From: a virus
Strand: one strand, 5' to 3'
Length of the DNA: 48,497 nt
IMG/VR virus record: IMGVR_UViG_3300022752_000112
Span: 1 to 48,497 of that record
Of the stretch, positions 4,556 through 27,329 are shown one piece after another; within the stretch, counting starts at the first letter, position 1, and each line of letters begins with the position of its first letter. The translations under genes and the position numbers were made by a program. The notes under the pieces are model-generated. The model saw nothing but the letters and a program-made list of their open reading frames with translations. It had not been told where the DNA came from and made no database searches.

Positions 4556-5254
4556 TTATTTTTTTCCGGTTTGTTTCAGTACAAAATAACCAATTACCCC
4601 TATCGCCAAAATAATGCCTCCCCAAATAAAATACTTTTGCATAGAACTTTTTTGATCCTTTTGCTCATCTTTTACGTCTTTGTCTGGTTCGGCTTTCGGT
4701 TGAGTTTCTTTATCGACAAAAGCATTTCCATTATCATCAACAACGACATTTTTATCTGGTACTACTATCCCGGTATCACTATTTGCGTTTGCATCAGTTT
4801 CCGTTGTTTGTGTGGCGTTTTTTGAAGCCGGAGGCATACCAACAATATAAGCATCAATCATTTGTTGCGTTAAAATGCTCGGATCAACATTGAAAATTTG
4901 TGCAATATCGTTTTTATCATAAACTCCGGTTGAGTGAACAAATACTCGATTAGCAGGAATGGTAATCGAAGTTCCATCTGGAAATGTTTTTGTATATTCT
5001 GTTGGCTGTGCAACAACTGGAACAATCGTTGTATTTCCATCCCCACCTGAAAATTTAGAAATAGGTTTTAATTTGGTAAGAGGATAAACAAATACTTTTT
5101 TTCCGTTTTTTCGTGTTACTCGAATTAAACGCCTTGCGTTGCGTTTTGCTTTTCTATCTTGATTTTTATTTGTTTTAGTTTCCTTTGGTTGTCGGGCTTT
5201 TTTATCGCCTTTAACGTTAGAATAAACCGGGTAATCAGTTTGAACAGTTATCAT
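4556..5254 (-). CDS. Virion-type membrane protein with YSNVKGD motif
   Basis: The 232-residue protein starts MITVQTDYPVYSNVKGD, nearly the same as the N-terminus of the 11791-12135 protein, so the two are paralogous there. A basic stretch (about 20-55) follows, then a soluble central domain, a long acidic linker and one C-terminal membrane span (about 208-226) ending KQTGKK. The central part (IPANRVFVHSTGVYDKNDIAQIF) may be a small globular domain. The motif at 11-17 is shared with five other proteins of the virion block. A structural membrane protein is the best reading; no family is known to me. Confidence 0.75.
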   Translation of the reverse strand: MITVQTDYPVYSNVKGDKKARQPKETKTNKNQDRKAKRNARRLIRVTRKNGKKVFVYPLTKLKPISKFSGGDGNTTIVPVVAQPTEYTKTFPDGTSITIPANRVFVHSTGVYDKNDIAQIFNVDPSILTQQMIDAYIVGMPPASKNATQTTETDANANSDTGIVVPDKNVVVDDNGNAFVDKETQPKAEPDKDVKDEQKDQKSSMQKYFIWGGIILAIGVIGYFVLKQTGKK

Positions 5255-5775
5255 TTTTTACGTTTTTTTCTTATGAGCAAAAATACTACTACCCCAACAA
5301 CAACAACTCCTCCAACAATTAAACCTATTTTAAGAGGTTTGCTCATTCCTTTGCTTTCTGGAGCCGGAGCAGATGCAGATTTTAATGTATTCAATAAAGC
5401 ATCGTCCCCAGATGGTTGAGATAAACTTTCAGCAAGTTTTTGTTGCGTATCTGCCTCGCTTTTTTTGATGTTGATACGTTCTTTTCTTGCATCTTGCCTG
5501 CTTTTTTTGGCTTCCAATCGAGATTGGTGGCGTTCTTCAATACGTCTTTGTCGGCTATCTTTTTTTTCCGTTCGTTTCATTCTTTTAGCCTCTCGTCTTT
5601 CTTTTCCGCCTGCATTTGAAAATTCTAACATTATTTCGCTTGTTTCTGGAAATTCATTTTGGTTAATGATTGTGCCATTGAACATTGAATAAGGCGAAAC
5701 ATCATTGTAAGACCTATTCTCGTTAAGTTGCGACAAACCGTTTGCTGTCATAAATCTAATTGCTTTTTGCATCAT
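5251..5775 (-). CDS. Highly basic virion-type membrane protein with FSNAGGK motif
   Basis: The protein has three parts: an N-terminal 50 residues, the motif FSNAGGK at 52-58, and an extremely Arg/Lys/Glu-rich helical region (about 59-120). One C-terminal span (about 150-168) ends in RKKRKK. The basic helix could contact packaged DNA under a membrane. It overlaps both neighbours by 4 bases. The motif position immediately before the basic region matches the related proteins in this block. Confidence 0.75.
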   Translation of the reverse strand: MMQKAIRFMTANGLSQLNENRSYNDVSPYSMFNGTIINQNEFPETSEIMLEFSNAGGKERREAKRMKRTEKKDSRQRRIEERHQSRLEAKKSRQDARKERINIKKSEADTQQKLAESLSQPSGDDALLNTLKSASAPAPESKGMSKPLKIGLIVGGVVVVGVVVFLLIRKKRKK

Positions 5776-6620
5776 TCTAATTTTACGCTATTCGCAGGTA
5801 TCCATTTATGCAAACTACTAATCGAATTATTAGGAACATAGAAAAATAATGCTTTATCATTTTTATTGTATCTTAAAGCCTTAATAGTTCCTAATTTAGT
5901 GTCATTCGGAACAGAATAACTCGTACTATCGTAGGCTGGATTAAATCGTAAATTCGCCTTATCATTTGAAACTCTGGCAGTTTTATTGATTGCTAAAGTG
6001 TTGTAAATTTTATTGGCATCAAACGAATTGTAAATTTGGTTAGCAAAATTAAATGTTGTTCCGGTAGTATTGTCCGCTAATCGTCTTTTTATTGCCTCCG
6101 CCCAATTTGTTACAAAATCAGGATATTTTTGAGCGGTGCTTTCCAAATAAGTACGTTTCGCTTTTTCGCCAATTCCATATTGAGTAATCGTAGTTATCGC
6201 ATCTTGAACGTTTTTATTCAATCCTGCATTAACATTAGGCTGATTAGTTGATCCTTGAGCAATATATTCACTTCCGTATTTCGTCCAAGCAGACGCACTA
6301 CTTTTTCCCCACTTTCCATCTGCTCCGGCTTTTCCTAAAATGTTTGTGTCTTTTTTGGTATTTAATACCCAATTTTGAAATGCCTTTAATTCAGCCTCCG
6401 TTTTGAATGGATTGCTAATAATTGAAGCGCCTGCATTTCCTCCTCCTTGCGAACCACCGCTACTTTCTGGAGTTGGACTTGGAGTTGGAACTGGTGGTGG
6501 TGGTGGTGGTGTTTGGTCTTTTTTATCTCTATTTTTTTTATACCATTGATAACCAAAATAGCCTCCAACTGCCAACACTACCGCTCCAGCAATATACAAA
6601 ATGTTATTTGATTTTGCCAT
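5772..6620 (-). CDS. Membrane-anchored peptidoglycan-binding and SH3-like protein
   Basis: An N-terminal span (about 6-24) is followed by a Pro-rich linker (seven prolines in a row near residue 40). Next comes a PG_binding_1-like module (LKAFQNWVLN through GADGKWGKSSASAWTKYG). The C-terminal 70 residues (NDKANLRFNPAYDSTSYSV through PANSVKLE) look like a bacterial SH3 domain. The ATG at 6620 was chosen because the longer frame to 6695 runs into the upstream gene and lacks a credible N-terminus. The protein could tether the virion to peptidoglycan during entry. Confidence 0.75.
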   Translation of the reverse strand: MAKSNNILYIAGAVVLAVGGYFGYQWYKKNRDKKDQTPPPPPPVPTPSPTPESSGGSQGGGNAGASIISNPFKTEAELKAFQNWVLNTKKDTNILGKAGADGKWGKSSASAWTKYGSEYIAQGSTNQPNVNAGLNKNVQDAITTITQYGIGEKAKRTYLESTAQKYPDFVTNWAEAIKRRLADNTTGTTFNFANQIYNSFDANKIYNTLAINKTARVSNDKANLRFNPAYDSTSYSVPNDTKLGTIKALRYNKNDKALFFYVPNNSISSLHKWIPANSVKLE

Positions 6621-6630
6621 AAATTTGCTT

Positions 6631-7005
6631 TTATGCTGTTTTTGTAAATGCCCAAAGACCTTCTGTAACTGGTCGTAAAATAACCGATTGCCCAATTCCT
6701 CCTCCTGACGCTATTGTTAAAGAAGTTGCTGATCCAATTTTTTGAGTAATTCCTCCAACGGGTGTCGTTGGCGAAATAACTATATTACTCGTATCATCAG
6801 TAACAATGATTACTATTTCGGTCAATAGCGCATCATTGAGGGATGGAATATAAGGCAAATTGATTGCTACAATCCCTGCGGTTGCATTAACTAAACAAGT
6901 GTTTCTATTAAACGTATTACCCTCATTGTCTTTACAAGTTAAGGTTACCGGGCTATTCGCAAATGCAACCGATACATAATTTTGATTTTGAACTGTTAGT
7001 GCCAT
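6631..7005 (-). CDS. Beta-rich virion or spike protein (124 aa)
   Basis: Starts MALTVQNQNYVSVAFANS; the ATG at 7005 fits the 23-base spacing from the upstream gene, while the frame extended to 7143 overlaps it. The protein is all-beta in character. Its C-terminal half (IVIIVTDDTSNIVISP then GGGIGQSVILRPVTEGLWAF) resembles the knob-like domain at the N-terminus of the 759-residue beta-helix protein in this window. Probably a surface or spike component. Confidence 0.65.
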   Translation of the reverse strand: MALTVQNQNYVSVAFANSPVTLTCKDNEGNTFNRNTCLVNATAGIVAINLPYIPSLNDALLTEIVIIVTDDTSNIVISPTTPVGGITQKIGSATSLTIASGGGIGQSVILRPVTEGLWAFTKTA

Positions 7006-7028
7006 TTTTTTGGTTTTTAGATTAGTAA

Positions 7029-7253
7029 TTATTGAGTTAAAGTTTGTTGCGTCATTTTTTTGCTTCGATTTGATAAAACTTGGTTGCTTATCATCGCTCC
7101 TGCTACGCCTCCTAATAGTGCAATTCCTCCGAGAACGTACCATTTTGAATTAGGCATAACTTTTTTGACTACCGCAAAGCCCACGACTGCCCCTAATAAG
7201 GTTGAAATCGGATTTGCTTTTATTTTGGCGGTGGTGTTTTTTATTAGTTCCAT
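7029..7253 (-). CDS. Small two-span membrane protein (74 aa)
   Basis: Two hydrophobic segments rich in Gly and Ala (about 16-32 and 38-58) and a polar tail. It is the first gene behind a promoter-like box (TATATTTGTGCTTGACT reading on the minus strand at 7268-7284), so it opens the transcript that runs on to the holin and spanins. Probably a virion-membrane or lysis accessory protein. Confidence 0.7.
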   Translation of the reverse strand: MELIKNTTAKIKANPISTLLGAVVGFAVVKKVMPNSKWYVLGGIALLGGVAGAMISNQVLSNRSKKMTQQTLTQ

Positions 7254-7276
7254 TGATTATTTAATTTAGTCAAGCA

Positions 7277-7284
7277 CAAATATA
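7277..7284 (-). promoter_or_regulatory. Promoter -7 box TATATTTG
   Basis: Reads TATATTTG on the minus strand, an exact TAnnTTTG match to the Bacteroidota -7 consensus, 24 bases before the start of the 7253 gene. It continues as GTGCTTGACT, identical to the sequence after the -7 box at 37922. No convincing -33 TTG is visible upstream, so it may need an activator. Confidence 0.5.
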
Positions 7285-7294
7285 AATATATTTT

Positions 7295-7795
7295 TTATAT
7301 TCGATATTTTATTTTTTTCTGTGTTAAAATGCTATTTACTTTTTTTACTTCATCTGCGTCCAATTCACTCGATAAACAGGCAATCAATGTTCCCTTAACA
7401 TCGGCAACAAAATAACTTCCGGAGCCTATTGTTCTCGTTCCGAAAGCGTTTTGAATTGCTAAAAAATCAGCATCGTTTTGTAATTTGTAAAATACCGAAT
7501 AAATTGCTTGTTCGTCCGTTCCTATGCCATCCATCGCTTGAAATAATTTATTAGCATAAGCAGAAGCCATTGAATTAGTTAGTTTTTGTCTGGTTTGAGG
7601 ATTTTGATTTAATTTTACTAATTCGTTGGCTGTATTTTGTTCCTCCTCCCTATAAGGCTGATTATCCGATGCTTGATTTACGCCTTTTACTAATCTATAA
7701 ATAATATAAACCCCCAAAATAAATCCTACGACTTGAACGCCAAGCCTAACTCTCGGATCAAGATTTTTGTAAACATTTGAAACATTTGTTGCCAT
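7295..7795 (-). CDS. Membrane protein with one annexin-like repeat
   Basis: A span at about 17-36 is followed by a polar linker and, from about residue 83, a segment resembling one annexin repeat: LFQAMDGIGTDEQAIYSVF, with the GxGTDE signature at 90-95, followed by two further helices. Annexin repeats bind membranes through calcium at this loop, normally in sets of four; here there is one. Several bacterial and phage proteins reuse the motif structurally without calcium. Location at the end of the capsid transcript suggests a virion membrane protein. Confidence 0.65.
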   Translation of the reverse strand: MATNVSNVYKNLDPRVRLGVQVVGFILGVYIIYRLVKGVNQASDNQPYREEEQNTANELVKLNQNPQTRQKLTNSMASAYANKLFQAMDGIGTDEQAIYSVFYKLQNDADFLAIQNAFGTRTIGSGSYFVADVKGTLIACLSSELDADEVKKVNSILTQKKIKYRI

Positions 7796-7797
7796 TA

Positions 7798-10077
7798 TTA
7801 CACAAATATATTTATTTCGTTTATATTATTTACGTTTTGTTGTTGAAAAACTTTGAAGTTGTCCGAACCAAAAACTCGTCCATTGAGAATTATATTATAT
7901 GGAGTTGGGCTTAAACTTGAAACCAATTCGCCTAACCCAGCAACAACTCCTACTGAAGTTGTTTGAAATGTCGTGATTTCCGCAACACTATTAAGTATTG
8001 TTTGCTCTCCAGTTCCACTCAAATTGATAATCGTTGTAATTGTTAAACCATTTGCATTTAGCAGTTGGTATTTGCCTCCAAAATTTTTGTATATCAATGG
8101 AATAGTCAGTTTTTGAGTTGGTAAATCATAAATCAAAGGATCATTACAATCCAAAACAATTAAAATACTTTGGTTTCCATTCTGGTAAGTTCCATTAACA
8201 AAATTAGTGTTATTTGTAATCGTTAAGTTTCCAAAAGTACATTCAAATAAAACTAAATTTTGAAAATTTCCATTGTTTGTACCTATTTCAATTTGACTAT
8301 TATTCGATAAAAAATTATTGGAAAAAGCGTTGGTGTTATTATTAGCAATTTCAATTTTACTATTAAACAATTTATTGAATAATAAAGAAGCAGAGTTATT
8401 GCTAATGTTTATTACACTCCTATTAAGAAAATTTCCCTCAGTTGCGTTTCCAATTATTCCTGTATTTGTATTTAATATAATTTCACTTTGATTTTCTAAA
8501 ACATTGTAACTAATTAAGCCGGGCGCTAAATTGTTATCGACAAGCATTTGACTATTGTCAAAAATACGATTACGAAAAATAGTTCCTGTATTAACCAACA
8601 CGCTTAAAGCAGAATAATTCAGGTTGTTTTCTTTGATTAAACTATTTGTATTGTTTAATTGAATTAAAGAAAATGCTATTTTGTTTGCAGTTATTTCCGA
8701 ATTTATCCCACCTCCAATTATTGCCCTTGTTTGAACAAAGTTGTTAATTGTAAATTCAAAATCGTTGCTAATCGAAAGATTGCAGTTATTAAAATAATTA
8801 GTATTGAATAAACCTACTCCGTTTATTGAACCAATACATTCAATAAATTCATTTGAAATAAAATTGGTTGTTGAACTCGATGATAAATTTCCAAAATATA
8901 AAATTGCCGATTTTCCTGAATTTAGAAAATAATTGTAAGAAAAATCATTAAAATTTGCATTTAGATTTATTCCATCGCCAAAAAAAACTCGGCTATTCGT
9001 TATATTGTTTTTAATGCACGAAGTAAAAACTGAATTGCAGTTGTAAAAAATACTATTGATTACTTGATTGTTTTGAACGTTTGGATCGCCCCACTTAAAA
9101 ACATTGAAAGCGAAAAACATACCGGATTGAAAAAATGTTACTTTGTTTTGGAAAACGTCCTCTCGGCTTATTACTAAATTGTTAGAGTAATCGTAATTTA
9201 TTTTGTTTGTTACTAACAAATAGCCATTTGAAGTTGAATTGGATAAAATTTGCCAATTTACTAAATCCAAAAAAGGATTTACTACTCCATTTGATCCTGT
9301 TATATTCAAAAAATGCTTATTATTCCAAATTACGACTGAATTTGTTGGCGTTACCAAAGAGGTATTCCAAATTCCTAATTGACCTACAAATCCAGAAATT
9401 CCTGAATAATTGCCTACATTCAAATAATCAGCATTGTAAAAATTTCCGGTTGCAGAGTTAGAAATTTGATTTGAGGTTGTTGCCAAACAAAAAACGTTAA
9501 TTGTTTCATTACCATAAACAGCATTGTTTATTAAGTACCCTTGATTGGTTATCAATGAAGATGATGCTACCAAAGTTGTAAATTGAGCAAAAGTTAAAGT
9601 TACAAAGTCATTGAAAATTGTTATTTCATTTCCAGAATTAGTCGTTTGTAATCCTTTAATTGTTATTTTTGATAAAGCGGTAGTTAGTGTTGATGGCGCT
9701 AAAAAAGGATTTTGATTATTAACAACTGATATAGGATTTCCTGATCCAAAAGAAAACTGACATAAATAGGCATTATTATCAGCAATAGTAATGACAGCAA
9801 CGCCTTTATTTACATTGATTAAGACCGAAGAAAGTCCGTTAATTGTATAGCCTATCGGAGCGTTAATTGTTATATTATTTATTGACGAATTACCACTATC
9901 AACGATATACAATTTATAGGCAGTATTCAAGTAATTTGCAGGCAATTCTAAAAGTTTTATTGCGACAGAAGATAAACTGGTATCGCAAATAATAAAGGTA
10001 TCGCCATTGAATACAAAATTTATTAGTCCTGTAATGGTGCGACTTGGATTGGATTGTATGGTAGGCGATAAAATCAT
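7798..10077 (-). CDS. Large parallel beta-helix spike or receptor-binding protein
   Basis: The 759-residue protein is dominated from about residue 250 to 620 by Asn-rich irregular repeats (NNxxxNxxI) with a hydrophobic residue every 20-22 positions, the pattern of right-handed parallel beta-helices such as phage tailspikes. An N-terminal domain (about 1-110, ITINAPIGYTINGL region) could attach it to the virion, and a C-terminal 100-residue cap ends NNINEINIFV. It overlaps the capsid-like 314-residue gene by 4 bases. Role: host surface glycan or receptor binding; enzymatic activity cannot be judged. Confidence 0.75.
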   Translation of the reverse strand: MILSPTIQSNPSRTITGLINFVFNGDTFIICDTSLSSVAIKLLELPANYLNTAYKLYIVDSGNSSINNITINAPIGYTINGLSSVLINVNKGVAVITIADNNAYLCQFSFGSGNPISVVNNQNPFLAPSTLTTALSKITIKGLQTTNSGNEITIFNDFVTLTFAQFTTLVASSSLITNQGYLINNAVYGNETINVFCLATTSNQISNSATGNFYNADYLNVGNYSGISGFVGQLGIWNTSLVTPTNSVVIWNNKHFLNITGSNGVVNPFLDLVNWQILSNSTSNGYLLVTNKINYDYSNNLVISREDVFQNKVTFFQSGMFFAFNVFKWGDPNVQNNQVINSIFYNCNSVFTSCIKNNITNSRVFFGDGINLNANFNDFSYNYFLNSGKSAILYFGNLSSSSTTNFISNEFIECIGSINGVGLFNTNYFNNCNLSISNDFEFTINNFVQTRAIIGGGINSEITANKIAFSLIQLNNTNSLIKENNLNYSALSVLVNTGTIFRNRIFDNSQMLVDNNLAPGLISYNVLENQSEIILNTNTGIIGNATEGNFLNRSVINISNNSASLLFNKLFNSKIEIANNNTNAFSNNFLSNNSQIEIGTNNGNFQNLVLFECTFGNLTITNNTNFVNGTYQNGNQSILIVLDCNDPLIYDLPTQKLTIPLIYKNFGGKYQLLNANGLTITTIINLSGTGEQTILNSVAEITTFQTTSVGVVAGLGELVSSLSPTPYNIILNGRVFGSDNFKVFQQQNVNNINEINIFV

Positions 10078-11018
10078 AAAATTCCTTTATTTCTTAATTC
10101 AGGTATAAGAACTTTTTTAATTTGAATTTGCTTGTAGTAAAACCCAAAAATTACGCTCATACCTCTTAGTACGGTATATTGCATTACATCCATTCCATCA
10201 GGACAATATAATCTGCCTAATGTTTTTTGAATATCCCAATAAACAATTTGCTTTTGATTTTGAACAATATCAATGTTTAGAGAGTTTTGAATAGGGAAAA
10301 CTTTTTCGCATCCTGCTATATTTTTATTTCTAAATATCATTGGTTGAGAAAATTGCTCATTTAGTAACGCTCCTGAACAAGTAAATTTAGCATTAGGCAA
10401 AATAACTGGATTTGCTAATAAATTGAATAAAACATCGGAATAAGATACTTTGTTGTTTCCGGCAACTTGAATTCTATTGTTTAGATTATCCGTTGTAGAA
10501 TAAAGATAGTCCAAAGGCGTTGATGGATTGAAAAATTCTATTGAAAAATCGTTAGGGCTATCATTATTAACAATAAGCACAAATTCTTTTAATTTTTCCC
10601 CTTTGTAATAACCGATATTTTTAATGTCCTCGTTTTCCTGACTTAAAATAAACTCATCTACGCCTTTAATTAAGATTGAGCGATTGTCAGGTAAATTTAT
10701 TTCGCTCGTTATTTTTCGTCCATTTGATTTTGGAAAAATATATTTTCTATTTCCTTTCGCTATTATTCTTTGACTTTCGTTTGTCGATTTAATTCTTTTT
10801 TTTTTAGGAACAATTTTTGCAGTTCTAATTTTTGAACTAACTTTTTTAAGTCGTTCCTTTTTGGTTTTTCCAGTAACGTTACTAAAATCAATATCTTCTA
10901 TTTCCAAAATTTCCGAATTGAAATCCGAGTAATCATCTAATCGAATTTCTTTTTTTTTGAAAAAATGGTCGTAATTGTCGCCATCCCAATCGTTCGTATC
11001 TTCTTCCCAAATGTTCAT
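10074..11018 (-). CDS. Second capsid-like (jelly-roll) structural protein
   Basis: It has an acidic, aromatic N-terminus (WEEDTNDWDGDNYDHFF), the FSNVTGK motif at 45-51, a basic region, and from about residue 135 a beta-rich domain. The order of segments there parallels the candidate major capsid protein at 15779-16531: an opening VLIVNN strand, an N-x-P turn followed by KFTCSGALLNEQFSQPMIF, then a YCPDGMDVMQYTVLRGMSVIFGF strand pair. I infer a jelly-roll fold and a role as vertex or minor capsid protein. The similarity is by eye and needs structural comparison. Confidence 0.6.
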   Translation of the reverse strand: MNIWEEDTNDWDGDNYDHFFKKKEIRLDDYSDFNSEILEIEDIDFSNVTGKTKKERLKKVSSKIRTAKIVPKKKRIKSTNESQRIIAKGNRKYIFPKSNGRKITSEINLPDNRSILIKGVDEFILSQENEDIKNIGYYKGEKLKEFVLIVNNDSPNDFSIEFFNPSTPLDYLYSTTDNLNNRIQVAGNNKVSYSDVLFNLLANPVILPNAKFTCSGALLNEQFSQPMIFRNKNIAGCEKVFPIQNSLNIDIVQNQKQIVYWDIQKTLGRLYCPDGMDVMQYTVLRGMSVIFGFYYKQIQIKKVLIPELRNKGIL

Positions 11019-11791
11019 GATGTCAATACTTTAGCGATTTCGCCTTTTTCAAATTTAGCAATATAATTCATTATTTTTCTTATCCTTTTCATATTTCCCT
11101 CGCTTTGTGCTTTGAGAAACACATTGATAAAAACATGAATTGCGTCCACTTTTGAATATCCTAAACCTAAATAAATATACAAAGCGTTTATGTCTGCGCC
11201 TATCTCATCGCTTATTGGTAAATTACTCAAGGGATTTAAGTATTTATGTGCAAATTCATGAAGCAATATAGCCATACGCATAGGTATAGTATATTTGTCA
11301 AAATGCGATTTACTTACTTCAATTATACCAGATGCGTGTCCTATTCTTGCCGGAGTTGTGCTTACTCGTCCTTGATCCGAAATAATAGGAAAGAATTTAA
11401 TCTTAAATTCTTTATCCGCCGTTGTAAAAAATCTTCCATTAACGTTTGCTTTTTCATATCCGCAACAAGCGACAAACTGTTGAGCGAATTTTACAAACTT
11501 TTTGATTTGGCTTGACAAAGTTACCTGATAAGTTTTCAATGGCTTTTCCTTAAAATCAACCATAAATTTATCTACCTCGTTTAAGGGAGTGATGATAAAT
11601 TTTATTTTTTCAGGGCTTTCCGGAAAACTAATGTAAATTTTTCTAAAATCGTTTACTTCAATAGTTCTTTCAGCATACTTGGAATTTGGCTGTAATGCGG
11701 TAGCCATAACACGAAAACGACATAAACCATCGCATTTTATTGAGATTTCTATTGCTAATTTACGATGATTTGTTTCCCATATTTTGTCCAT
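11015..11791 (-). CDS. Zinc metallopeptidase (HEXXH)
   Basis: Residues 178-182 are HEFAH within a helix (MRMAILLHEFAHKYL), the gluzincin/metzincin zinc site. A following acidic cluster (DEIGAD, about 195-200) could supply the third ligand, as in M78/M48-like families. A beta-rich N-terminal domain of about 90 residues precedes it, with no signal peptide. The ATG at 11791 overlaps the upstream stop by one base. Placement between virion genes makes it a candidate maturation protease or an entry enzyme; the substrate is unknown. Confidence 0.75.
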   Translation of the reverse strand: MDKIWETNHRKLAIEISIKCDGLCRFRVMATALQPNSKYAERTIEVNDFRKIYISFPESPEKIKFIITPLNEVDKFMVDFKEKPLKTYQVTLSSQIKKFVKFAQQFVACCGYEKANVNGRFFTTADKEFKIKFFPIISDQGRVSTTPARIGHASGIIEVSKSHFDKYTIPMRMAILLHEFAHKYLNPLSNLPISDEIGADINALYIYLGLGYSKVDAIHVFINVFLKAQSEGNMKRIRKIMNYIAKFEKGEIAKVLTS

Positions 11792-12135
11792 TACTTTTTT
11801 TTCCTTGTCAAAAAATAAACACCAACCCCTAAAACAATTACTCCTGCTCCGATTAAAACCCACGTTGTAACAGATATTTTGTTTTCTGGAGCAGGTGGAG
11901 GAGGCGGTGGAAAATTGTCGGTGTTATTAGTGTTTCCTGTATTTCCACTACCACTTTGTAATGCTAAATTTTCAATGCTTGTCAAAAGTCCGCTTTCTTT
12001 CGCTTTACCATAAATATCTTTCAATTTATCTTTTCTTGCTTGACTTCTTGCGTTTCTTTCTTCTGGAGTTAAATTTTTACTCGATTTTCCGGTGGCATTA
12101 GAAAATACTGGTCGAGAGGTTTGTATATCAATCAT
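11791..12135 (-). CDS. Virion-type membrane protein with FSNATGK motif
   Basis: A 114-residue protein beginning MIDIQTSRPVFSNATGK, homologous to the start of the 4556-5254 protein. A basic helix (about 20-50), Asn/Gly-rich and polyproline linkers, and one C-terminal span (about 89-109) ending RKKK follow. This mini-version contains the same three-part plan (motif, basic helix, tail anchor) as the 174- and 232-residue proteins, suggesting a family built by duplication. Confidence 0.75.
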   Translation of the reverse strand: MIDIQTSRPVFSNATGKSSKNLTPEERNARSQARKDKLKDIYGKAKESGLLTSIENLALQSGSGNTGNTNNTDNFPPPPPPAPENKISVTTWVLIGAGVIVLGVGVYFLTRKKK

Positions 12136-12637
12136 TTGTTTTTGGTTTCGTTACTGCTTGTTGATTATTTTGATTTCGATAAACAATATAAAGCGCTAAA
12201 ATTCCTACGATACCTGCGCCTATTAGTTTGTTTTTCAATGGATATTCTTCGTTCATTGGTAAATATCCTTGCTTTTCTATTAAATGTGTTCCTAAAAAAC
12301 CTACCGCAACCCCTATAAGCAAAGCATCTAAATACTTTATTTTTGGATTATTTGGTTTTATCGAAATAGGTTTCGGAATAGGATCGCTCAGTTCATTTCC
12401 GGTTGCATTACTTTGTATTTCCTTTCCGGCTAACTCTTTAACACATTCTAAAGGAACAACGCACATAGCACCAACTAAAACAAACGATGGTTGATTATTT
12501 GCGTGTTTTAATTCGCCTTGAACAATCTGCCCTTTTCTAAACTTCCTAAATCGCACTTGCGCTGGTTTGTGCGCTGTTTGACCACCAATAACAATCGGAG
12601 AGTTTACGTCCTTTGTAATTATGTAACTTTTTTTCAT
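12128..12637 (-). CDS. Virion-type membrane protein with QSNATGN motif
   Basis: The N-terminal 70 residues look like a small beta domain (VIVIGGQTAHKPAQV, KGQIVQGELKH, FVLVGAMCVVP). The motif QSNATGN sits at 75-81, and two membrane spans follow (about 104-121 and 137-153). The tail is polar. The motif therefore separates a soluble domain from the membrane part. It is coupled to the 34-residue gene upstream by an ATGA overlap. Confidence 0.7.
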   Translation of the reverse strand: MKKSYIITKDVNSPIVIGGQTAHKPAQVRFRKFRKGQIVQGELKHANNQPSFVLVGAMCVVPLECVKELAGKEIQSNATGNELSDPIPKPISIKPNNPKIKYLDALLIGVAVGFLGTHLIEKQGYLPMNEEYPLKNKLIGAGIVGILALYIVYRNQNNQQAVTKPKTND

Positions 12638-12738
12638 TTTATTTTGGCTTTGGTTATTGTTTGAGATTTTTGATAAGACCTAAATGCCTCAATCAAAATA
12701 CCACCTACAACAATCGCAATTACTAATTTTTTAAGCAT
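12634..12738 (-). CDS. 34-residue membrane peptide
   Basis: Reads MLKKLVIAIVVGGILIEAF, then a polar basic tail ending KAKIK. One membrane span fills residues 4-19. It overlaps the upstream gene by 8 bases and the downstream gene by ATGA, so translation is likely despite the size. Small tail-less single-span proteins like this are common in membrane-containing phages such as PRD1. Confidence 0.6.
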   Translation of the reverse strand: MLKKLVIAIVVGGILIEAFRSYQKSQTITKAKIK

Positions 12739-13348
12739 TTCTGCGTTTTACTAAATAAACTATTAACCCAATAATGGCTAATCCACCAACCACTGATCCT
12801 GCAATAATCCAATACTTTGTTTGTTTCGCTTTATTGTCTTGTGCCTGTTTTTCTTTTTCAGTTTCTAATGCTTTTTGTTGTAAAATAGATTTAACCAATT
12901 CTTGTTTGCTTTCTTGTTTTTTGGTAACTGCATCCAAAGCGCCATATTTTTTTTTCTGTCTGCCTTGAAGCGCTGTATTTCCTAAATTTGCTAACGCACC
13001 AACGCCCTCTGCAATAGCGCCTACTGAATTAAAGTATTGGTCATCATTACTTTCATAATTAAAATAGTCCATAAGGTCGTTGTAATTATCATAAACAATT
13101 TGGTTATCTATCTCGCCATCAAATCCTTGTTCATCTTCAACAAAATAAGCAGTTAAGCCTTTTAATTCGTCATTTTCAGGTAATTCGTTGATGTATTTTT
13201 CTACCAAGTCGGCAAGGCTATCATTATTACTAACTGGTATATTTGCAGTATCAAGTAAATCAACAAAAGAACTTTTATCATTAGCAACAATAGTTCCTAA
13301 TTTTCTCATTATTCGTTTGTTGGCATTTTTTAATTTTTGAAATTCCAT
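12731..13348 (-). CDS. Virion-type membrane protein with acidic middle
   Basis: The protein has a basic N-terminal helix, then an acidic region containing DLMDYF and DDQYF. These are similar in character to the YDGMDYFDGD repeats of the candidate capsid protein. A Gly/Ala-rich segment (SVGAIAEGVGALANLG) and a charged coiled coil (about 130-175) follow, with one C-terminal span (about 181-200) ending KRRNA. No family is recognised. It fits the series of tail-anchored virion proteins. Confidence 0.7.
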   Translation of the reverse strand: MEFQKLKNANKRIMRKLGTIVANDKSSFVDLLDTANIPVSNNDSLADLVEKYINELPENDELKGLTAYFVEDEQGFDGEIDNQIVYDNYNDLMDYFNYESNDDQYFNSVGAIAEGVGALANLGNTALQGRQKKKYGALDAVTKKQESKQELVKSILQQKALETEKEKQAQDNKAKQTKYWIIAGSVVGGLAIIGLIVYLVKRRNA

Positions 13349-13587
13349 CGCTTGTAAAGAAAATAACTACCCACTAATAAAATCACTATTGCTCCAACTT
13401 TTGCAGTAATTGAATACTGATACCCTATTTTTTTACCTGAAAAATAATCGTTTAGTACCTGATTAGAAGTTGAAGCAACCGGATACCAACTTTCACTACT
13501 GCCCTTTTTTCTTCTTACCCAACCGCTACTCCTTTTTTGATATTCGTAGGTTGGATTGTCCGGATAGTATAATGTTTGATATAACAT
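13330..13587 (-). CDS. Small tail-anchored membrane protein (85 aa)
   Basis: The N-terminal 55 residues are aromatic and basic (WVRRKKGSSESWYPV); a span at about 61-79 is followed by YKRWNFKN. It overlaps the next gene by 19 bases. Unrecognised; likely another virion membrane protein. Confidence 0.65.
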   Translation of the reverse strand: MLYQTLYYPDNPTYEYQKRSSGWVRRKKGSSESWYPVASTSNQVLNDYFSGKKIGYQYSITAKVGAIVILLVGSYFLYKRWNFKN

Positions 13588-13592
13588 TTTAT

Positions 13593-14735
13593 TTACGATA
13601 AAAGTTTATACTTACGAATGGCATAGATACCAGCAAACGCAATCAATCCTCCTATTAAAAAATTTCGCCAAAACGTATCATTTGATCCACTAAAATTACT
13701 ACTCGTTTCTGTATAATCTAAATTTATCATTTGAGGCTCTGGTTGTTCATAATCAAAAACTGGTACGCCCAAATCGTCCGCATTGTAAAAATCTGTTATC
13801 TGGTTAGTCGAACCAAACTCATCGGAAGTTCCATCAAACGAAAAACTTTTCAGCATAGAATTTCGACCTCGTTGTTCCCACCATTTTTGAATTTTGCTTT
13901 TATCCCAACCTTGTTTAAGCATTTTTGCCATAATGATAGGAGGAATAGGCGCATTTAATAATCTTTGTAATCGTGCTTTGCGTTTCTCTTTGTTGATAGT
14001 TCTGGAAGAAACGCCATTTGCACCGCTAAATTGTTCTAATTGTTTTTCTAAATCATTTGCTTTTTGAAAATTCATTTGAAGCGCTTTATCAATTTGATTA
14101 GTCGCACCTCCTTTTTGCTGTTTTAATGCTTTCATTTGCATTAAATTACTTAATGCTTCATTAGTCATTTCAATTTGATAACACATTACCTTAACTTGTT
14201 TCGGTGTTGCTGTATCTCCAGAGATTTCACTCACAAAATTGCTATCCTCATCTTCGGAATATACTTCGTCCCCTGAATTGTCTTGATCCTCGTTATCCTC
14301 CGAATTTTGATTTTCGTTATCGTTATCAGTATTGGTAGTTGAATTGTCTTGATCCTCGTTATTCGTTTCGTCTTGATTGCTTGTTTGTGTTTCGTTAGAG
14401 GACATATCTGCATCTTTAGTTTGCGTATCTTCTTCTAACGAACCTTTTTCGGCTTCTTCTTCGGAATTTGGCTTTTGTCTGCCATGTTTAATATCCGAAA
14501 TCATTTGTCTTTTAGATTTTCTTGCGCTTTGTTTTTGTTTTCTTGCATCCTGACGAACTGCTTTAATTTTTGCCCTTCTGCTTTTTCTATCGCCATGCTT
14601 TTTTCCTTTTGCATCGCTAAAATTTTCGCCTAAAAAGGCTTGTTCGTATGTTGCGGTATTAGTAACCATAGTATTATCCGCCAATCCCGGTTCTAAATTA
14701 ACGATAACTGAATTGTAATTTTGGTAAGCCTCCAT
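13593..14735 (-). CDS. Acidic/basic tail-anchored virion-type protein with FSDAKGK motif
   Basis: The 380-residue protein has FSDAKGK at 39-45, then a Lys/Arg-rich helix (about 45-85), then a long Asp/Glu/Asn-rich disordered stretch (about 95-175) partly built from a duplicated EDQDNS unit. A helical region (about 185-260), a second acidic aromatic stretch and one C-terminal span (about 357-375) follow. The ATG at 14735 was chosen because the frame extended to 14819 overlaps the upstream gene. It is the largest of the motif-bearing membrane proteins and could bridge capsid, membrane and DNA. Confidence 0.7.
   Translation of the reverse strand: MEAYQNYNSVIVNLEPGLADNTMVTNTATYEQAFLGENFSDAKGKKHGDRKSRRAKIKAVRQDARKQKQSARKSKRQMISDIKHGRQKPNSEEEAEKGSLEEDTQTKDADMSSNETQTSNQDETNNEDQDNSTTNTDNDNENQNSEDNEDQDNSGDEVYSEDEDSNFVSEISGDTATPKQVKVMCYQIEMTNEALSNLMQMKALKQQKGGATNQIDKALQMNFQKANDLEKQLEQFSGANGVSSRTINKEKRKARLQRLLNAPIPPIIMAKMLKQGWDKSKIQKWWEQRGRNSMLKSFSFDGTSDEFGSTNQITDFYNADDLGVPVFDYEQPEPQMINLDYTETSSNFSGSNDTFWRNFLIGGLIAFAGIYAIRKYKLLS
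14275..14363. repeat. Internal direct repeat in acidic linker
   Basis: A segment of about 22 bases beginning GAATTGTCTTGATCCTCGTT occurs at 14275 and again at 14341 (66-base pitch). It encodes the duplicated EDQDNS unit in the acidic linker of the 380-residue protein. It looks like slippage or duplication within a low-complexity coding region rather than a control element. Confidence 0.6.
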
Positions 14736-14736
14736 T

Positions 14737-15189
14737 TTATATTGTTTTGATTTGTATTGATTTTGGTTTATATAAAGAGTTAGAAATAAAATAACCTGCA
14801 ATCGCAGAAACACCCCCAATCATCAAGGCATTTTTGTTTTCATAGCCCATTTTTTTGGCTACTGCAAAACTTATTATTCCAACAAATACACTAATTGCTG
14901 AAGTCATAACATTGTTTTCTTGGTTATTAGGCAAGTCAATTACTCTCGTATTTATATCGCCCTCAAATTTATTTTTCATTTCTTGAACGGTATTTGCATA
15001 AAGTAAAAATCCATCTTTTGCTCTAAATAAACGATATGTAAAATCCTTTCCTTTTCTTTTTCCTACTACATTGTAAAAATCGCCATCTAACTTCGTTCCT
15101 TTTTTTATGAATATACTTGTTTCTACAAAATTTTTATGTTTGTCATTGTTAATTAAAACTGGCGAATTTTCTAACACAACTACATTCAT
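14737..15189 (-). CDS. Two-span membrane protein (150 aa)
   Basis: The soluble N-terminal 85 residues are predicted beta-rich (ETSIFIKKGTKLDG, KDFTYRLFRAKDGFLLYA). Two Ala/Gly-rich spans lie at about 95-110 and 120-138. The stop is one base before the next start. Unrecognised, but its membership in the virion block suggests a structural membrane protein. Confidence 0.65.
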   Translation of the reverse strand: MNVVVLENSPVLINNDKHKNFVETSIFIKKGTKLDGDFYNVVGKRKGKDFTYRLFRAKDGFLLYANTVQEMKNKFEGDINTRVIDLPNNQENNVMTSAISVFVGIISFAVAKKMGYENKNALMIGGVSAIAGYFISNSLYKPKSIQIKTI

Positions 15190-15778: not shown

Positions 15779-16531
15779 TTACGATTTGCTTACGCCACCA
15801 ACTCTTTGGTTTGTGTTGATGATTACAGGAGCAACATTTTTACCACTTAGTCGAGGAGCAACTGCTCGGTTTAATGAAGTACCTCCAGAAAGAACTGCCT
15901 TGCTTGACAATACCGCTGTCGGGAACATTGAAATTACTAATGTAGTTAATGCTAATACTGGAAACGTAACTTGGGTGTTTGCATCTACAACAATGCTTTT
16001 GGTAACATCCAAAATATCGCTCTGGAACTGATAAGCATCTCGCATAATGCTAAGGTTCAACGGCGTTGAGTATTGTTTACCATTCGCATCAAAATGACTG
16101 ATAGTTAATGTTTGACTTAACTGTCCGGAAGATGCGGATTGAAAACGCCATTTACTAATAGTTAAAGGCTTGTTTGATGTTTGACCAATCAAAGTCGTAT
16201 AAGAAGAACCCTGCAAGTTTGTTACAGTGATACCTACTGGATTACCAAATTGACCTGTTGGATCGTTAAAGTTATTGTTATATCCGAATAAAACCGCAGT
16301 CAAAGTACCGGGCGTTGTGTTTTGGTACTGGATTACATAAGGATCGGAAATGTTTTGTGGTTGGCTACCATCGGCAAAAGACATATCGCCATCAAAATAG
16401 TCCATACCATCGTAATTGTCATAATCGTCAAATGAGGAAAGGTCGCCATCAAAATAGTCCATACCATCATAGCCGGACATTTTTTCAGCAACTCCTAAAA
16501 AGCGATAAAGTTCTTTTTCGTTTGCGTTCAT
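15779..16531 (-). CDS. Candidate major capsid protein
   Basis: A 250-residue protein. The N-terminal 55 residues carry two copies of YDGMDYFDGD and an acidic spacer. The rest is beta-rich with Gly/Ser/Thr loops and almost no helix (TLTAVLFGYNNNF, GITVTNLQGSSYTTLIG, LTISKWRFQSASSGQLSQ, DILDVTKSIVVDANTQV, FPVLALTTLVISMFP), consistent with a jelly roll. It has its own upstream promoter and a strong terminator, as expected for the most abundant virion protein. Similar segment order occurs in the 314-residue protein. No HK97-type capsid signature is seen. The assignment is inference from context and composition. Confidence 0.6.
   Translation of the reverse strand: MNANEKELYRFLGVAEKMSGYDGMDYFDGDLSSFDDYDNYDGMDYFDGDMSFADGSQPQNISDPYVIQYQNTTPGTLTAVLFGYNNNFNDPTGQFGNPVGITVTNLQGSSYTTLIGQTSNKPLTISKWRFQSASSGQLSQTLTISHFDANGKQYSTPLNLSIMRDAYQFQSDILDVTKSIVVDANTQVTFPVLALTTLVISMFPTAVLSSKAVLSGGTSLNRAVAPRLSGKNVAPVIINTNQRVGGVSKS
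16386..16468. repeat. 26-bp direct repeat in capsid gene
   Basis: Positions 16386-16411 and 16443-16468 are identical (26 bases, 57-base pitch). They encode the duplicated YDGMDYFDGD peptide at the N-terminus of the candidate capsid protein. Exact nucleotide identity suggests recent duplication or conversion. Confidence 0.8.
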
Positions 16532-18285: not shown

Positions 18286-18540
18286 TTATTTATTTTTATT
18301 TTGATTTATTATGTGTTTAATGCTAAAAGGTATTGAAATAGGAACTAAAATAAAATAGAAAACACATACAGCGCCCAAAGAAATAATAAATGCAAATATA
18401 TTGCTGGTATAAACTAATCGGCTGATTTCATTAACCAGAATACGTTTATCACTTCGTTTTGAAACTAAAATCAATCCTACAATATATAAAATTGACCAAA
18501 AGACAAAAAAATTGCTTAACATTTCATTTTTTATTACCAT
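18286..18540 (-). CDS. Two-span membrane protein (about 80 aa)
   Basis: Hydrophobic segments at about 10-26 and 47-72 flank a basic loop (VSKRSDKRILV). The start could be the ATG at 18540, overlapping the ATPase end by 17 bases, or the ATG at 18522 just after that stop; the latter better fits local spacing. PRD1-like viruses encode small membrane proteins next to the packaging ATPase that form the unique packaging vertex; this is a candidate for that role. Confidence 0.65.
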   Translation of the reverse strand: MVIKNEMLSNFFVFWSILYIVGLILVSKRSDKRILVNEISRLVYTSNIFAFIISLGAVCVFYFILVPISIPFSIKHIINQNKNK

Positions 18541-19348
18541 AGTATTGCATTGTATATTGATCCGACATTCCCTCTATTGCCTCTCGTTCGCTACAATTAT
18601 TCATTTCCTTAAATTCTTTAAGATATTTTTTGTTTGCGTACAGATATTGCTCACAACCCTTTCTAAATTCGTCAAGCGTAAAATCTCCCTCAATTTTATT
18701 AGCAAAATTATGAATGTAAACATAAAATCGAGTATCGCCATTAAAGTAACGATTGTTTACGATATTTTGCGCTATCTTCATCATCGTTGGATTATTTACT
18801 TTTCCTTTAATATCCATAACGTTGTCGGCTTGGTAGTGCATCCTTACCCAACGAGCATTCTGCCAAATTCGTGGTTCAACTGGACGTAATGATTGATAAG
18901 AAATAAGAACATCAACCGCTCGATGCCTTAAAGAAACTAATCCGGAAACAATCTTTTCCATGTGAGAAACATTCAGGATATAAGTATTAACATCTTCTAA
19001 AACCAACAATCCATTTCTAAAATAACGCATCAAAAATTCTATTGCCTCTCTTTTTTTAGCAATATCTAAACTTTTTGCATCTATCCTACGACATTCGACT
19101 TCATTTGACCTTGACCAACTTGGAATATCTTTTAATGCTAAAGTTTTGGCTTCAAAATTTTTAAGTCCATTTTTTTCAAATTGACTTTTAGTATATTCGC
19201 CATTGGTATCAAATATCAAGCACTTGCGACCTTTTACTTTCGTAGCAATTTTATCTCGGCAGTAATCATAAATAATATATTGGTTAAGGTATGTTTTACC
19301 AACTCCCTGTATTCCTGTTATACACATCATTCCTGCCTCTCTTGACAT
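18524..19348 (-). CDS. HerA/FtsK-superfamily ATPase, packaging candidate
   Basis: The Walker A motif GIQGVGKT is at 12-19, and CLIFDTNGEYT gives the second strand. The Walker B motif LLVLED is at 114-119, and a polar motif (LISYQSLRP, Gln at 152) is followed by an arginine-rich segment (IWQNARWVRM), the order seen in HerA/FtsK ATPases. The 274-residue size matches the packaging ATPases of PRD1-, PM2- and A32-type viruses rather than conjugation coupling proteins. No terminase is present in the window. Zot-like filamentous-phage ATPases are an alternative, but the rest of the genome is not filamentous-phage-like. Confidence 0.75.
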   Translation of the reverse strand: MSREAGMMCITGIQGVGKTYLNQYIIYDYCRDKIATKVKGRKCLIFDTNGEYTKSQFEKNGLKNFEAKTLALKDIPSWSRSNEVECRRIDAKSLDIAKKREAIEFLMRYFRNGLLVLEDVNTYILNVSHMEKIVSGLVSLRHRAVDVLISYQSLRPVEPRIWQNARWVRMHYQADNVMDIKGKVNNPTMMKIAQNIVNNRYFNGDTRFYVYIHNFANKIEGDFTLDEFRKGCEQYLYANKKYLKEFKEMNNCSEREAIEGMSDQYTMQYYGNKK

Positions 19349-19351
19349 TTT

Positions 19352-20467
19352 CTATTCTTTTGTAGGTGTTTCAGTTAGTAAAGATAAGTCATTTATGCTA
19401 TTGTCCATTTCATTCAAAATATCGGCATCCAAAGGCTGTCTATTCTTTTTTATTCTTTCTGGATTAGAATTTGTTTTATATTTTTCAACTGGCGGAGGAG
19501 GTGGACTTGAATAATAATCGTTTGTTGGTTCTGGAGGATAGTTGTTTACTACTCCATTCATTTTTCGCTCTCTTAATTGCATTAAAAGTTGATTGTTCGT
19601 TGTTACTATGGCATTTAATTTTATTCCTTGTTCTGCCAAAAGAGATAAACCTGAAATTGCTAAATTGATACTTGCATTTGGTTGTATGTTATTTTCCAAA
19701 AATACCTCAGTTAAATCCTCTGTCAAACCCTCCCTTTTTTCGTCCGAAATTTTCGATGCTACTTGAATTTCGCCTAATTGATTTAAGAAATAATCTTTTA
19801 TTGTTGCCTCAACTCCACCGGGCAGTTCAACTAAAGCAGTTAAATCCATCTCATTATTTAATTCATATTCCATCAATTTATTTGGATTTGTGTCTTTAGT
19901 TGCATACCATACAAACCCTACCTCAAGCAATCCGCATACTAAATCGACAATCGTTTTGGCAAATCTTTTGGCTTTGCGTTTCTCTTTTTGGTTATCGTTT
20001 ACTGTTGATGGCGCTTGATTTCCGGGATTGAAAATTCTTTGTTTTTGGTTATTTTCACTTTCCGTTTTTGCGCTTCTTAATTCTTCATCGGAGGGAAACT
20101 CGAACGCCTGATTGTATGTTTTTGGTTCTGCATAGGCGCTTTTATTGTTCTTTTGAAAATCGGCAAATGGATCAAATTTATCATCCATAACGTAATCTCT
20201 TACATTTGGTTCTTCTCGATTTAATGGATCAATAAATGGTTTTTCCATGCTTGTATTGTTTCCTTGTGCGACCTCCTCTGTTATTTCTACAACCTCGCTG
20301 GTTAATTCGTTATGTAATTTTTGTAATTCCTCGAAATCGGAGGCTGGAGTTATTTTGTCTGCTAACTCTGGATTGGATTGTATGCTTTTTTTAATGTTTT
20401 CTAACATTGTCCTTTCCCGGTAGTTAAGGTTTCCCTTTTTCTTGTAAAAATCTGTATTCTTATTCAT
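19352..20467 (-). CDS. ATPase-partner protein with disordered ends
   Basis: Of the 371 residues, the first 150 are charged and low-complexity. A basic stretch (about 160-170) leads to a hydrophobic helix (about 172-192, IVDLVCGLLEVGFVWYA) and a helical middle. The C-terminus is Pro/Tyr-rich (PPEPTNDYYSSPPPPPVEKY) and disordered. The gene stops 3 bases before the ATPase start. It could be a portal-vertex or membrane-associated packaging factor; no family is recognised. Confidence 0.65.
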   Translation of the reverse strand: MNKNTDFYKKKGNLNYRERTMLENIKKSIQSNPELADKITPASDFEELQKLHNELTSEVVEITEEVAQGNNTSMEKPFIDPLNREEPNVRDYVMDDKFDPFADFQKNNKSAYAEPKTYNQAFEFPSDEELRSAKTESENNQKQRIFNPGNQAPSTVNDNQKEKRKAKRFAKTIVDLVCGLLEVGFVWYATKDTNPNKLMEYELNNEMDLTALVELPGGVEATIKDYFLNQLGEIQVASKISDEKREGLTEDLTEVFLENNIQPNASINLAISGLSLLAEQGIKLNAIVTTNNQLLMQLRERKMNGVVNNYPPEPTNDYYSSPPPPPVEKYKTNSNPERIKKNRQPLDADILNEMDNSINDLSLLTETPTKE

Positions 20468-21285: not shown

Positions 21286-21488
21286 TTTATGCCATCTAAA
21301 TCGTGTTTCAATTTAAGTAATTCCAGTTGCTTAATTTCGTGATCCAAAGCCTCGTTTTTTTGTTGAAGTTTTATGATTTCTTTCTGGTTGAGATAAGTCA
21401 TAAGAGCAACCGCTCCAGCGGTTAAAACGCTAATCGAAACTAAGATATTGATTAAACTATCGCTTTTTTTTACTATTGGAGTTATCAT
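21282..21488 (-). CDS. Small membrane protein with coiled-coil tail
   Basis: Of 68 residues, 14-32 form a membrane span (ILVSISVLTAGAVALMTYL) followed by a Gln/Glu/Lys/Leu coiled coil. It is convergent with and overlaps the OB-fold gene by 4 bases, and it is coupled upstream by an ATGA overlap. Another candidate virion membrane or i-spanin-like protein. Confidence 0.65.
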   Translation of the reverse strand: MITPIVKKSDSLINILVSISVLTAGAVALMTYLNQKEIIKLQQKNEALDHEIKQLELLKLKHDLDGIN

Positions 21489-21643
21489 TTTCTTTGTTTG
21501 TCCATTTCAGGTTTAACAATATATCTATATCCTAAATACCCAACGAGAGCCAGTCCGATTATCCAAAATATAGCATTTGATTTTTTAGTCGTTCCAACGC
21601 CTCCACCAGAACCAAAATTTGATGTATTAAAATTTGTTATCAT
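21485..21643 (-). CDS. 52-residue membrane protein with Gly-rich N-terminus
   Basis: The N-terminus reads MITNFNTSNFGSGGG; one span lies at about 26-43 (IFWIIGLALVGYLGYRYI) and the tail is basic. Both ends are in ATGA overlaps (with 21488 and 21640). The Asn/Gly-rich start followed by a span is similar to other small virion proteins here. Confidence 0.65.
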   Translation of the reverse strand: MITNFNTSNFGSGGGVGTTKKSNAIFWIIGLALVGYLGYRYIVKPEMDKQRK

Positions 21644-22122
21644 TGTTTTTGTATTTGAAATTGTGTACTATTTATTGGATTTTCTAAAAGAGAAAATTTA
21701 TTGGCAATTACTAAACCATTTTCTTCGTTTGGTTCATAGGTTTCCCAAATCAAATCATAACAATTTGGCAAAAGCGATTTCATTTCCTCCATGCTTATTT
21801 CTCTTAAACCATTTTTAATTGCATTATACAACTCTTTTTCTATTAAGATACCTAACTGCTCGTCTGCATGGTTTTTCGGTTCATCTGCGCCGTCCTCGTC
21901 AGTTTCATAAGCAAAACTATCTAACAATAAATCAACTAAATCCGCATCGAGTTCTTTTAATTTCTCGATAGTATCTTCGCCTATTTTTTGACCAATTCTT
22001 TTTTTGCTTTCAATTAAATTTTTAAGTTGAGTAATTTCTCGGATTTTCAGTTGTAAGTTTCTATCTAAATCGGAAATATCAACCTCGTTTTTTTCTAAAA
22101 CTTTTTCAAATGCTAATTTCAT
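21640..22122 (-). CDS. Helical hypothetical protein (160 aa)
   Basis: A soluble, acidic, mostly helical protein with a coiled-coil N-terminal half (about 15-65) and an acidic centre (ETDEDGADEP). No membrane span or catalytic motif. It is last before two tail-anchored peptides in a run that also contains the cell-wall hydrolases. Function unknown. Confidence 0.65.
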   Translation of the reverse strand: MKLAFEKVLEKNEVDISDLDRNLQLKIREITQLKNLIESKKRIGQKIGEDTIEKLKELDADLVDLLLDSFAYETDEDGADEPKNHADEQLGILIEKELYNAIKNGLREISMEEMKSLLPNCYDLIWETYEPNEENGLVIANKFSLLENPINSTQFQIQKQ

Positions 22123-22166
22123 ACTTCTATTTTTTCAAAATTACTTATTTTCCAATCATCATTCAT
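22119..22166 (-). CDS. Possible 15-residue leader peptide
   Basis: MNDDWKISNFEKIEV ends in an ATGA overlap with the next gene and begins after CAAATAAGTATG, the recurrent strong start context. Ribosomes could be delivered to the 22122 gene by this peptide. It could also be chance in AT-rich DNA. Confidence 0.3.
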   Translation of the reverse strand: MNDDWKISNFEKIEV

Positions 22167-22168
22167 AC

Positions 22169-22345
22169 TTATTTGTTTTTTGTTATTTCTATTAAATTAT
22201 CTTCGCTTAATAGCAAAATTTCATTTTCAATCTGCACTTTATAGATTTTTCTTTTCTTGTTAAAAACACCTATAATGATTGCTTCTATTTGATAAATAGG
22301 AACCAGCGAAATAATATCTCCAACCTTAAATTTTTCATTTGCCAT
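22169..22345 (-). CDS. Small KOW/SH3-like protein (58 aa)
   Basis: MANEKFKVGDIISLVP then EAIIIGVFNKKRKIYKVQIE suggests a small beta barrel similar to KOW/SH3 folds (short 'vGd.v' start, a turn, then basic strands). The protein at 40352-40498 has the same layout (YSIGQTITLLNG then KAVVIGKDEKKKIYTVIL), so the two may be distant paralogues. Role unknown. Confidence 0.55.
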   Translation of the reverse strand: MANEKFKVGDIISLVPIYQIEAIIIGVFNKKRKIYKVQIENEILLLSEDNLIEITKNK

Positions 22346-27328: not shown

Positions 27329-27329
27329 T

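Follow-up and report, generated by a model that had tools for sequence, protein, structure and literature searches.

Adenoviruses (with the protease AVP), poxviruses (I7) and African swine fever virus cleave several precursors of virion proteins, among them basic core proteins that bind DNA, at sites made of small residues and glycine. In the tailed phages T4 and SPN3US, a serine prohead protease encoded in the morphogenesis gene set (gp21 and gp245, respectively) recognises one short motif (LxE or AxE) in the major capsid protein (MCP) and several other head proteins, with N-terminal propeptides or targeting leaders preceding the motif. SPN3US gp245 cuts after AXE to strip N-terminal propeptides off the MCP and further head proteins, while the capsid-targeting sequence leaders of T4 are 10–20 amino acids long (PMC7411985). 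Among the peptidases of virion-injected phage proteins, zincins occur most often, and the zincin metallopeptidase domains of polyvalent proteins have been proposed to process proteins packaged in the virion (Iyer et al. 2017; PMC5512222). Here, we describe a short motif shared by virion proteins, [FYMW]-x-[N/D/Y/F/S]-A-x-G, and a zincin-like candidate protease, both encoded in the virion block of an uncultured viral fragment, the 48,497-base linear IMG/VR virus record IMGVR_UViG_3300022752_000112 (the whole of which is called the window), and in its relatives.

Like the T4 and SPN3US systems, the window combines a single short motif in an MCP and several further proteins, N-terminal extensions before the motif and a protease gene among the morphogenesis genes. 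It differs in that the candidate enzyme is an HExxH zincin and the motif ends in A-x-G, and in that the presumed substrates are capsid-type and membrane-anchored proteins of an apparently tailless virus. Polyvalent proteins are likewise encoded in the window, although the zincin of polyvalent proteins is an internal domain (PMC5512222) and that of the window a stand-alone gene in the capsid block. In general make-up, the window virus resembles SSIP-1 (L023), a 44 kb Bacteroidetes-type phage with an internal membrane and two MCP types, whose virion also contains a DNA methyltransferase protein of very large size and numerous small transmembrane proteins (PMC6356626). However, in SSIP-1 the motif occurs at chance level and no zincin is annotated, and the SSIP-1 proteins compared with those of the window gave no similarity at E 0.1, the MCPs and the packaging ATPase included.

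The initial annotation had pointed out six heptapeptides of the form [FYQ]S[ND][AV]xG[KDN] in otherwise different proteins, mostly at the junction between an N-terminal leader and a basic region. All six are present at the residues given there. Clustering by similarity with the motif masked assigns each of the six proteins to a cluster of its own, which rejects shared ancestry as the explanation, and a basic stretch follows the motif in five of the six. These copies and the further ones discussed below are:

5204–5224, minus strand: YSNVKGD, residues 11–17 of the protein encoded by 4556–5254, with the leader MITVQTDYPV before it, a basic region after it and a C-terminal transmembrane segment.
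5602–5622, minus strand: FSNAGGK, residues 52–58 of the protein encoded by 5251–5775, with an acidic leader before it, a basic helix after it and a C-terminal transmembrane segment.
5674–5691, minus strand: YSMFNG, residues 29–34 of 5251–5775, an extra copy conserved in orthologues at near-constant spacing.
5737–5754, minus strand: FMTANG, residues 8–13 of 5251–5775, an extra copy (FMVANG, FMLSNG and YMVANG in orthologues).
10866–10886, minus strand: FSNVTGK, residues 45–51 of 10074–11018 (MCP2), within DIDFSN[VI]xGK, which is conserved in near relatives.
12085–12105, minus strand: FSNATGK, residues 11–17 of 11791–12135, preceded by the leader MIDIQTSRPV.
12395–12415, minus strand: QSNATGN, residues 75–81 of 12128–12637, degenerate.
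14601–14621, minus strand: FSDAKGK, residues 39–45 of 13593–14735 (numbered from the ATG at 14735), followed by a basic region.
16367–16384, minus strand: MSFADG, residues 50–55 of MCP1 (15779–16531), at the end of a disordered acidic arm.

Most of these sites recur in relatives. Orthologues of the first protein carry YSNAIGD, FSYADG or YSNANG at the same position; those of 5251–5775 have FSNADG, FSNASG or WSNATG in place of FSNAGGK and contain three conserved motif copies about 21 residues apart, and in distant relatives the comparable basic proteins encoded in a similar location contain FDNLFG-KKAKARR and FYNLFG-SKKRK. Around FSDAKGK, the pattern [FYM]S[DENQ][AL][KQR]G[KR] is conserved in most relatives. 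QSNATGN is a weak instance, as relatives retain SN..G and the aromatic residue is not conserved. Several copies had been overlooked: MSFADG and two MDYFDG in MCP1, FMTANG and YSMFNG in 5251–5775, and a degenerate YFNSVG in 12731–13348. Two candidates were set aside, FYNVVGKRKGK in 14737–15189, which sits inside a conserved stretch and whose aromatic residue is not conserved in relatives, and YAYAQG in proteins of 140–154 amino acids, which is fixed in one family and possibly part of a folded domain. In several proteins (4556–5254, 11791–12135 and relatives L014–L021) the motif directly follows a leader of the form MI-x-[VI]-x-T-x-x-PV, which may be a particle-targeting sequence; in 12767–14032 of L018, this leader is internally duplicated.

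The strict form of the motif has six matches in the 24 virion-block proteins of the window, compared to 0.011 expected from whole-protein shuffling and 0.009 from local shuffling over 20 residues, and none in the 31 other window proteins (9,677 amino acids). This regular expression was picked post hoc from the data, but motifs defined in the relatives and an unbiased scan agree with it. Nine related viral contigs were located with the candidate capsid protein (15779–16531) and the HerA-type ATPase as queries, and gene order is conserved in the virion blocks of eight of these. An unbiased scan of three-letter patterns over 695 non-redundant proteins places F..A.G at the top (83 proteins, 23 expected, z 12.4); NA.G and Y..A.G are likewise among the first five, in the company of patterns typical for transmembrane segments. 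The pattern [FYMW].[ND]A.G is found in 82 proteins, about ten times the 8.3 obtained by shuffling in 20-residue windows, while permuted and reversed decoys stay at chance level. After clustering with the motif masked, 12 of 93 unrelated protein families have it in at least 30% of their members, where 0.8 would be expected by chance. An acidic residue, glycine or asparagine is preferred before the aromatic residue, followed by serine, asparagine, alanine and often aspartate up to the glycine, which is invariant by construction; the next position shows little preference and arginine is enriched from about six residues downstream. The shuffles reject a chance origin and the decoys local composition as the cause. 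A general habit of Bacteroidetes phages is rejected by the controls 11b, phi38:1, FLiP, crAss001 and SSIP-1, which together contain three motif proteins against 3.5 expected. The variable P2 residue fits neither an EF-hand or calcium site nor an N-glycosylation sequon (NAT). Absence from close relatives, which the initial annotation had named as refuting its reading, does not occur: the motif is present family-wide, and the sequences strongly support that it is shared by the virion proteins of the family.

The placement of the motif is also regular. It lies upstream of the transmembrane anchor in 55 of 57 proteins, and transmembrane segments are found in 70% of the motif proteins compared to 31% of the others. 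The mean charge changes from −1.64 in the 25 residues before the motif to +0.75 in the 25 residues after it, a step of 2.40 that is to be compared with 0.36 ± 0.47 at random positions and that exceeds the one seen around the remaining glycines in these proteins (p = 0.0003). Acidic-to-basic junctions of this kind from different viruses are LEFSNASG-KKRKKKKK, DEDFDNLFG-KKAKARRQARK and GDFSYASG-KKRKKRRG.

Two of the motif proteins are candidate capsid proteins:

15779–16531, minus strand: MCP1, candidate major capsid protein with an acidic N-terminal arm and a beta-rich core; a homologue is present in 54 of 55 zincin-bearing loci.
10074–11018, minus strand: MCP2, a paralogue of MCP1, whose orthologues match the MCP profile at E 1e-44 to 1e-57.

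The arm of MCP1 in the window is predicted to be disordered, with a predicted local distance difference test (pLDDT) score below 50. The AlphaFold2 model of the whole protein is poor (pLDDT 62) and gives weak matches only, to jelly-roll capsid folds. Across 29 diverse homologues, down to 23% identity, the arms are acidic and variable, unlike Ala53 and Gly55 of the last motif copy, which are nearly invariant; a linker that varies in length precedes them, and the first conserved strand (SQPYI or SDPYV) follows closely. The motif thus marks the boundary between the variable N-terminal arm and the conserved core, and the distant MCP of L022, which lacks an arm, begins at the core. In all, MCP arms bear two to four copies of the motif. 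In MCP2 the motif follows an acidic N-terminus and precedes a basic stretch. The virus shell may be built from the two related capsid proteins; two MCP types each have been reported for P23-77 and SSIP-1 (PMC6356626).

Between two genes for motif proteins, the window encodes the candidate protease:

11015–11791, minus strand: zincin-like metallopeptidase of 258 amino acids, a beta-sandwich followed by a zincin domain, candidate maturation protease.
11246–11260, minus strand: its HEFAH active-site motif, residues 178–182.

The structural model is confident (pLDDT 92) and consists of the beta-sandwich and a helical zincin domain. Pfam matches are below gathering scores, the best having E 0.025 to 0.2 (M56 and SprT-like); a fold search of the PDB returned no match at E ≤ 0.001, and one of a viral library gave two matches just under E 0.001, both with TM-scores below 0.3. 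A profile of the protein retrieves 55 viral loci with 31–65% identity; HExxH is present in all 55 homologues, Glu196 and Asp200 are invariant too, and the virion block thus holds a conserved protease gene with an intact active site. Nearly all of these loci (54 of 55) also contain a candidate MCP1 homologue. Conversely, a separate scan with the MCP profile yielded 54 further loci, 49 of them with the zincin. The five without it (7.5–12.7 kb) stop too near the MCP to include it, that is, the zincin is found in 49 of the 49 loci long enough to contain one.

That the motif is a common processing or sorting site, as the initial annotation had it, fits all of the tests: it is present family-wide, lies at the arm-core boundary and before anchors, and co-occurs with the zincin. 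The cutting is what we infer, and the repeated copies fit docking equally well. In our judgement, the chances are even that the motif, in the form [D/E/N/G]-[FYMW]-x-[N/Y/F/D/S]-A-x-G, serves the virion proteins as a common site of cleavage during maturation, and the scissile bond would then probably follow the glycine. The zincin encoded by 11015–11791 is a possible, if tentative, choice for the enzyme that cuts it. In such a scheme, MCP1, MCP2 and the membrane-anchored, DNA-facing proteins would be synthesised with N-terminal extensions, either acidic disordered arms or short leaders, which would mask basic segments, target the protein to the assembling particle, or both; the short leaders (MI-x-V-x-T-x-x-PV) and acidic arms would act like the capsid-targeting sequences and propeptides of T4. 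The HExxH zincin would then cleave, probably after the glycine, so that the capsid arm is trimmed and the basic, membrane-anchored part is released for contact with the DNA.

Several observations weigh against this reading. A dibasic sequence directly after the glycine is present in just 16 of 176 instances, MCP2 has V, I, F or L in place of the alanine, and zincins usually read the primed side, while the residues of the motif would be non-primed if the cut is after the glycine. The N-terminal domain of the zincin most resembles carbohydrate-binding beta-sandwiches (weak fold matches), which would suit a role at the cell surface. Some proteins, among them the orthologues of 5251–5775 and the MCP arms, contain three to five regularly spaced copies, beyond the need of a single trimming event. 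Such copies are central to the chief alternative, somewhat unlikely in our view, in which the motif is not cut and serves for multivalent docking. By binding one shared partner, which might be the MCP core, the beta-sandwich of the zincin or a scaffold, it would bring membrane proteins and capsid arms together at one site of assembly. The near-constant spacing of about 21 residues in the 5251–5775 orthologues, the two to four copies in MCP arms, the disordered, linker-like surroundings and the aromatic anchor typical of docking peptides all suit docking. However, the capsid protein and its would-be dockers share the motif, so a third partner or self-association would be required; docking does not require conservation of A.G at the arm-core boundary or a charge switch there; and it leaves the invariantly active protease gene unexplained. 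A further point against the cleavage reading comes from one lineage (lineage D), which retains the zincin and F..[AV]DG in the MCP arm but whose membrane proteins show the A.G motif weakly; in both genomes inspected, the anchors of these proteins tend to be N-terminal. This pattern fits a motif that belongs to proteins with N-terminal extensions and does not distinguish cutting from docking.

The primed-side preference of zincins and the carbohydrate-binding resemblance also favour cleavage by a different protease, of the host or an unrecognised viral one, with the zincin acting in entry or at the cell surface. We regard this as improbable, given that the zincin and the motif are found together in over 50 divergent contigs. 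Among the scanned proteins of the window, which is a genome fragment, no other protease was recognised except a lysin of the M15 D-Ala-D-Ala carboxypeptidase type. In this same set of scanned proteins there was no Pfam or PHROG match to serine prohead proteases of the T4 gp21 or HK97 gp4 type, and no Pfam match to the Ulp1-like cysteine proteases (C5, C48, C57 and C63 types) by which adenoviruses, poxviruses and other nucleocytoplasmic large DNA viruses differ from the window. It is very improbable, and largely refuted by the sequence comparisons, that the motif merely reflects acidic disordered linkers rich in glycine, asparagine, serine and aromatic residues, partly of shared origin and with no specific function. 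The arms are indeed of low complexity, several of the leaders look paralogous, and so are MCP1 and MCP2. Yet neither shuffling of local composition (82 against 8.3) nor permuted decoys reproduce the motif, 12 unrelated families carry it, and its alanine and glycine are near-invariant within otherwise variable MCP arms.

The family appears to be undescribed: the literature searched contains no description of it, and a search of INPHARED phages found nothing related to the ATPase, the MCP or the zincin (best MCP match, E 0.2). Three matches were found in contigs of bacterial genomes, two of them in Bacteroidetes metagenome-assembled genomes. These appear to be tailless, uncultured viruses of Bacteroidetes, probably with an internal membrane, perhaps inside an icosahedral capsid, as suggested by the many transmembrane virion proteins and the HerA-type ATPase:

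18524–19348, minus strand: HerA/DUF87-type ATPase (PF01935), presumed packaging ATPase of the virion module, conserved in relatives.

Just upstream of the ATPase gene, 19352–20467 encodes a candidate scaffold, which matches the T4-like capsid assembly scaffolding family weakly and below threshold (E 0.0075). In SSIP-1, a parallel motif seen by eye, V[RQ]xxGMG, shows no convincing enrichment. Its gp34 (21296–22210), annotated as a structural protein, has a transglutaminase- or papain-like signature (DCDG...HVYV...LDPT), also seen by eye, and a C-terminal transmembrane segment; it is possibly a protease of SSIP-1.

Multi-domain proteins predicted to be injected from the virion (23773–24591, 25055–27355 and 34825–37854) contain about ten copies of a second motif, [FY]x[DAS]GGx[VIL] (FDDGGSV, YADGGMV and others). 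Its form in L022 and L045, two relatives, is YANGGG[VI]G and resembles the virion motif. The protein encoded by 25055–27355 has a C-terminal RelA/SpoT-type domain, and 27938–34588 encodes a polyvalent protein of 2,216 amino acids with ddrB-ParB, SNF2 helicase and zeta-toxin-like domains. The copies of the second motif are possibly inter-domain cut sites of the same enzyme, and the zincin may also process injected polyvalent proteins, at related [FY]xDGG sites.

Motif-guided maturation and phage zincins are each known in kind; for their combination, in which a zincin and an A-x-G motif occur together with capsid-type and membrane proteins in an apparently undescribed tailless family, the literature searched gave no match. 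To our knowledge, tailless, membrane-containing bacterial viruses such as PRD1, PM2, the sphaerolipoviruses and FLiP are thought to assemble without proteolytic maturation, while their eukaryotic relatives, adenovirus and the giant viruses, do undergo it. We tentatively propose, as a doubtful rather than a settled matter, that these viruses of Bacteroidetes mature through a dedicated zincin that trims both the capsid proteins and the membrane-anchored, DNA-condensing proteins at A-x-G. The hypothesis yields a testable site, enzyme and set of substrates and a possible new sequence-specific protease, and the motif is a hallmark with which virion proteins of this apparently undescribed family can be annotated. 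If true, a zincin-coupled motif in capsid-type and membrane proteins would change the view of tailless bacterial viruses. Tailless membrane phages would then have their first example of a maturation protease system, one that parallels, with a zincin, the maturation of adenoviruses and poxviruses.

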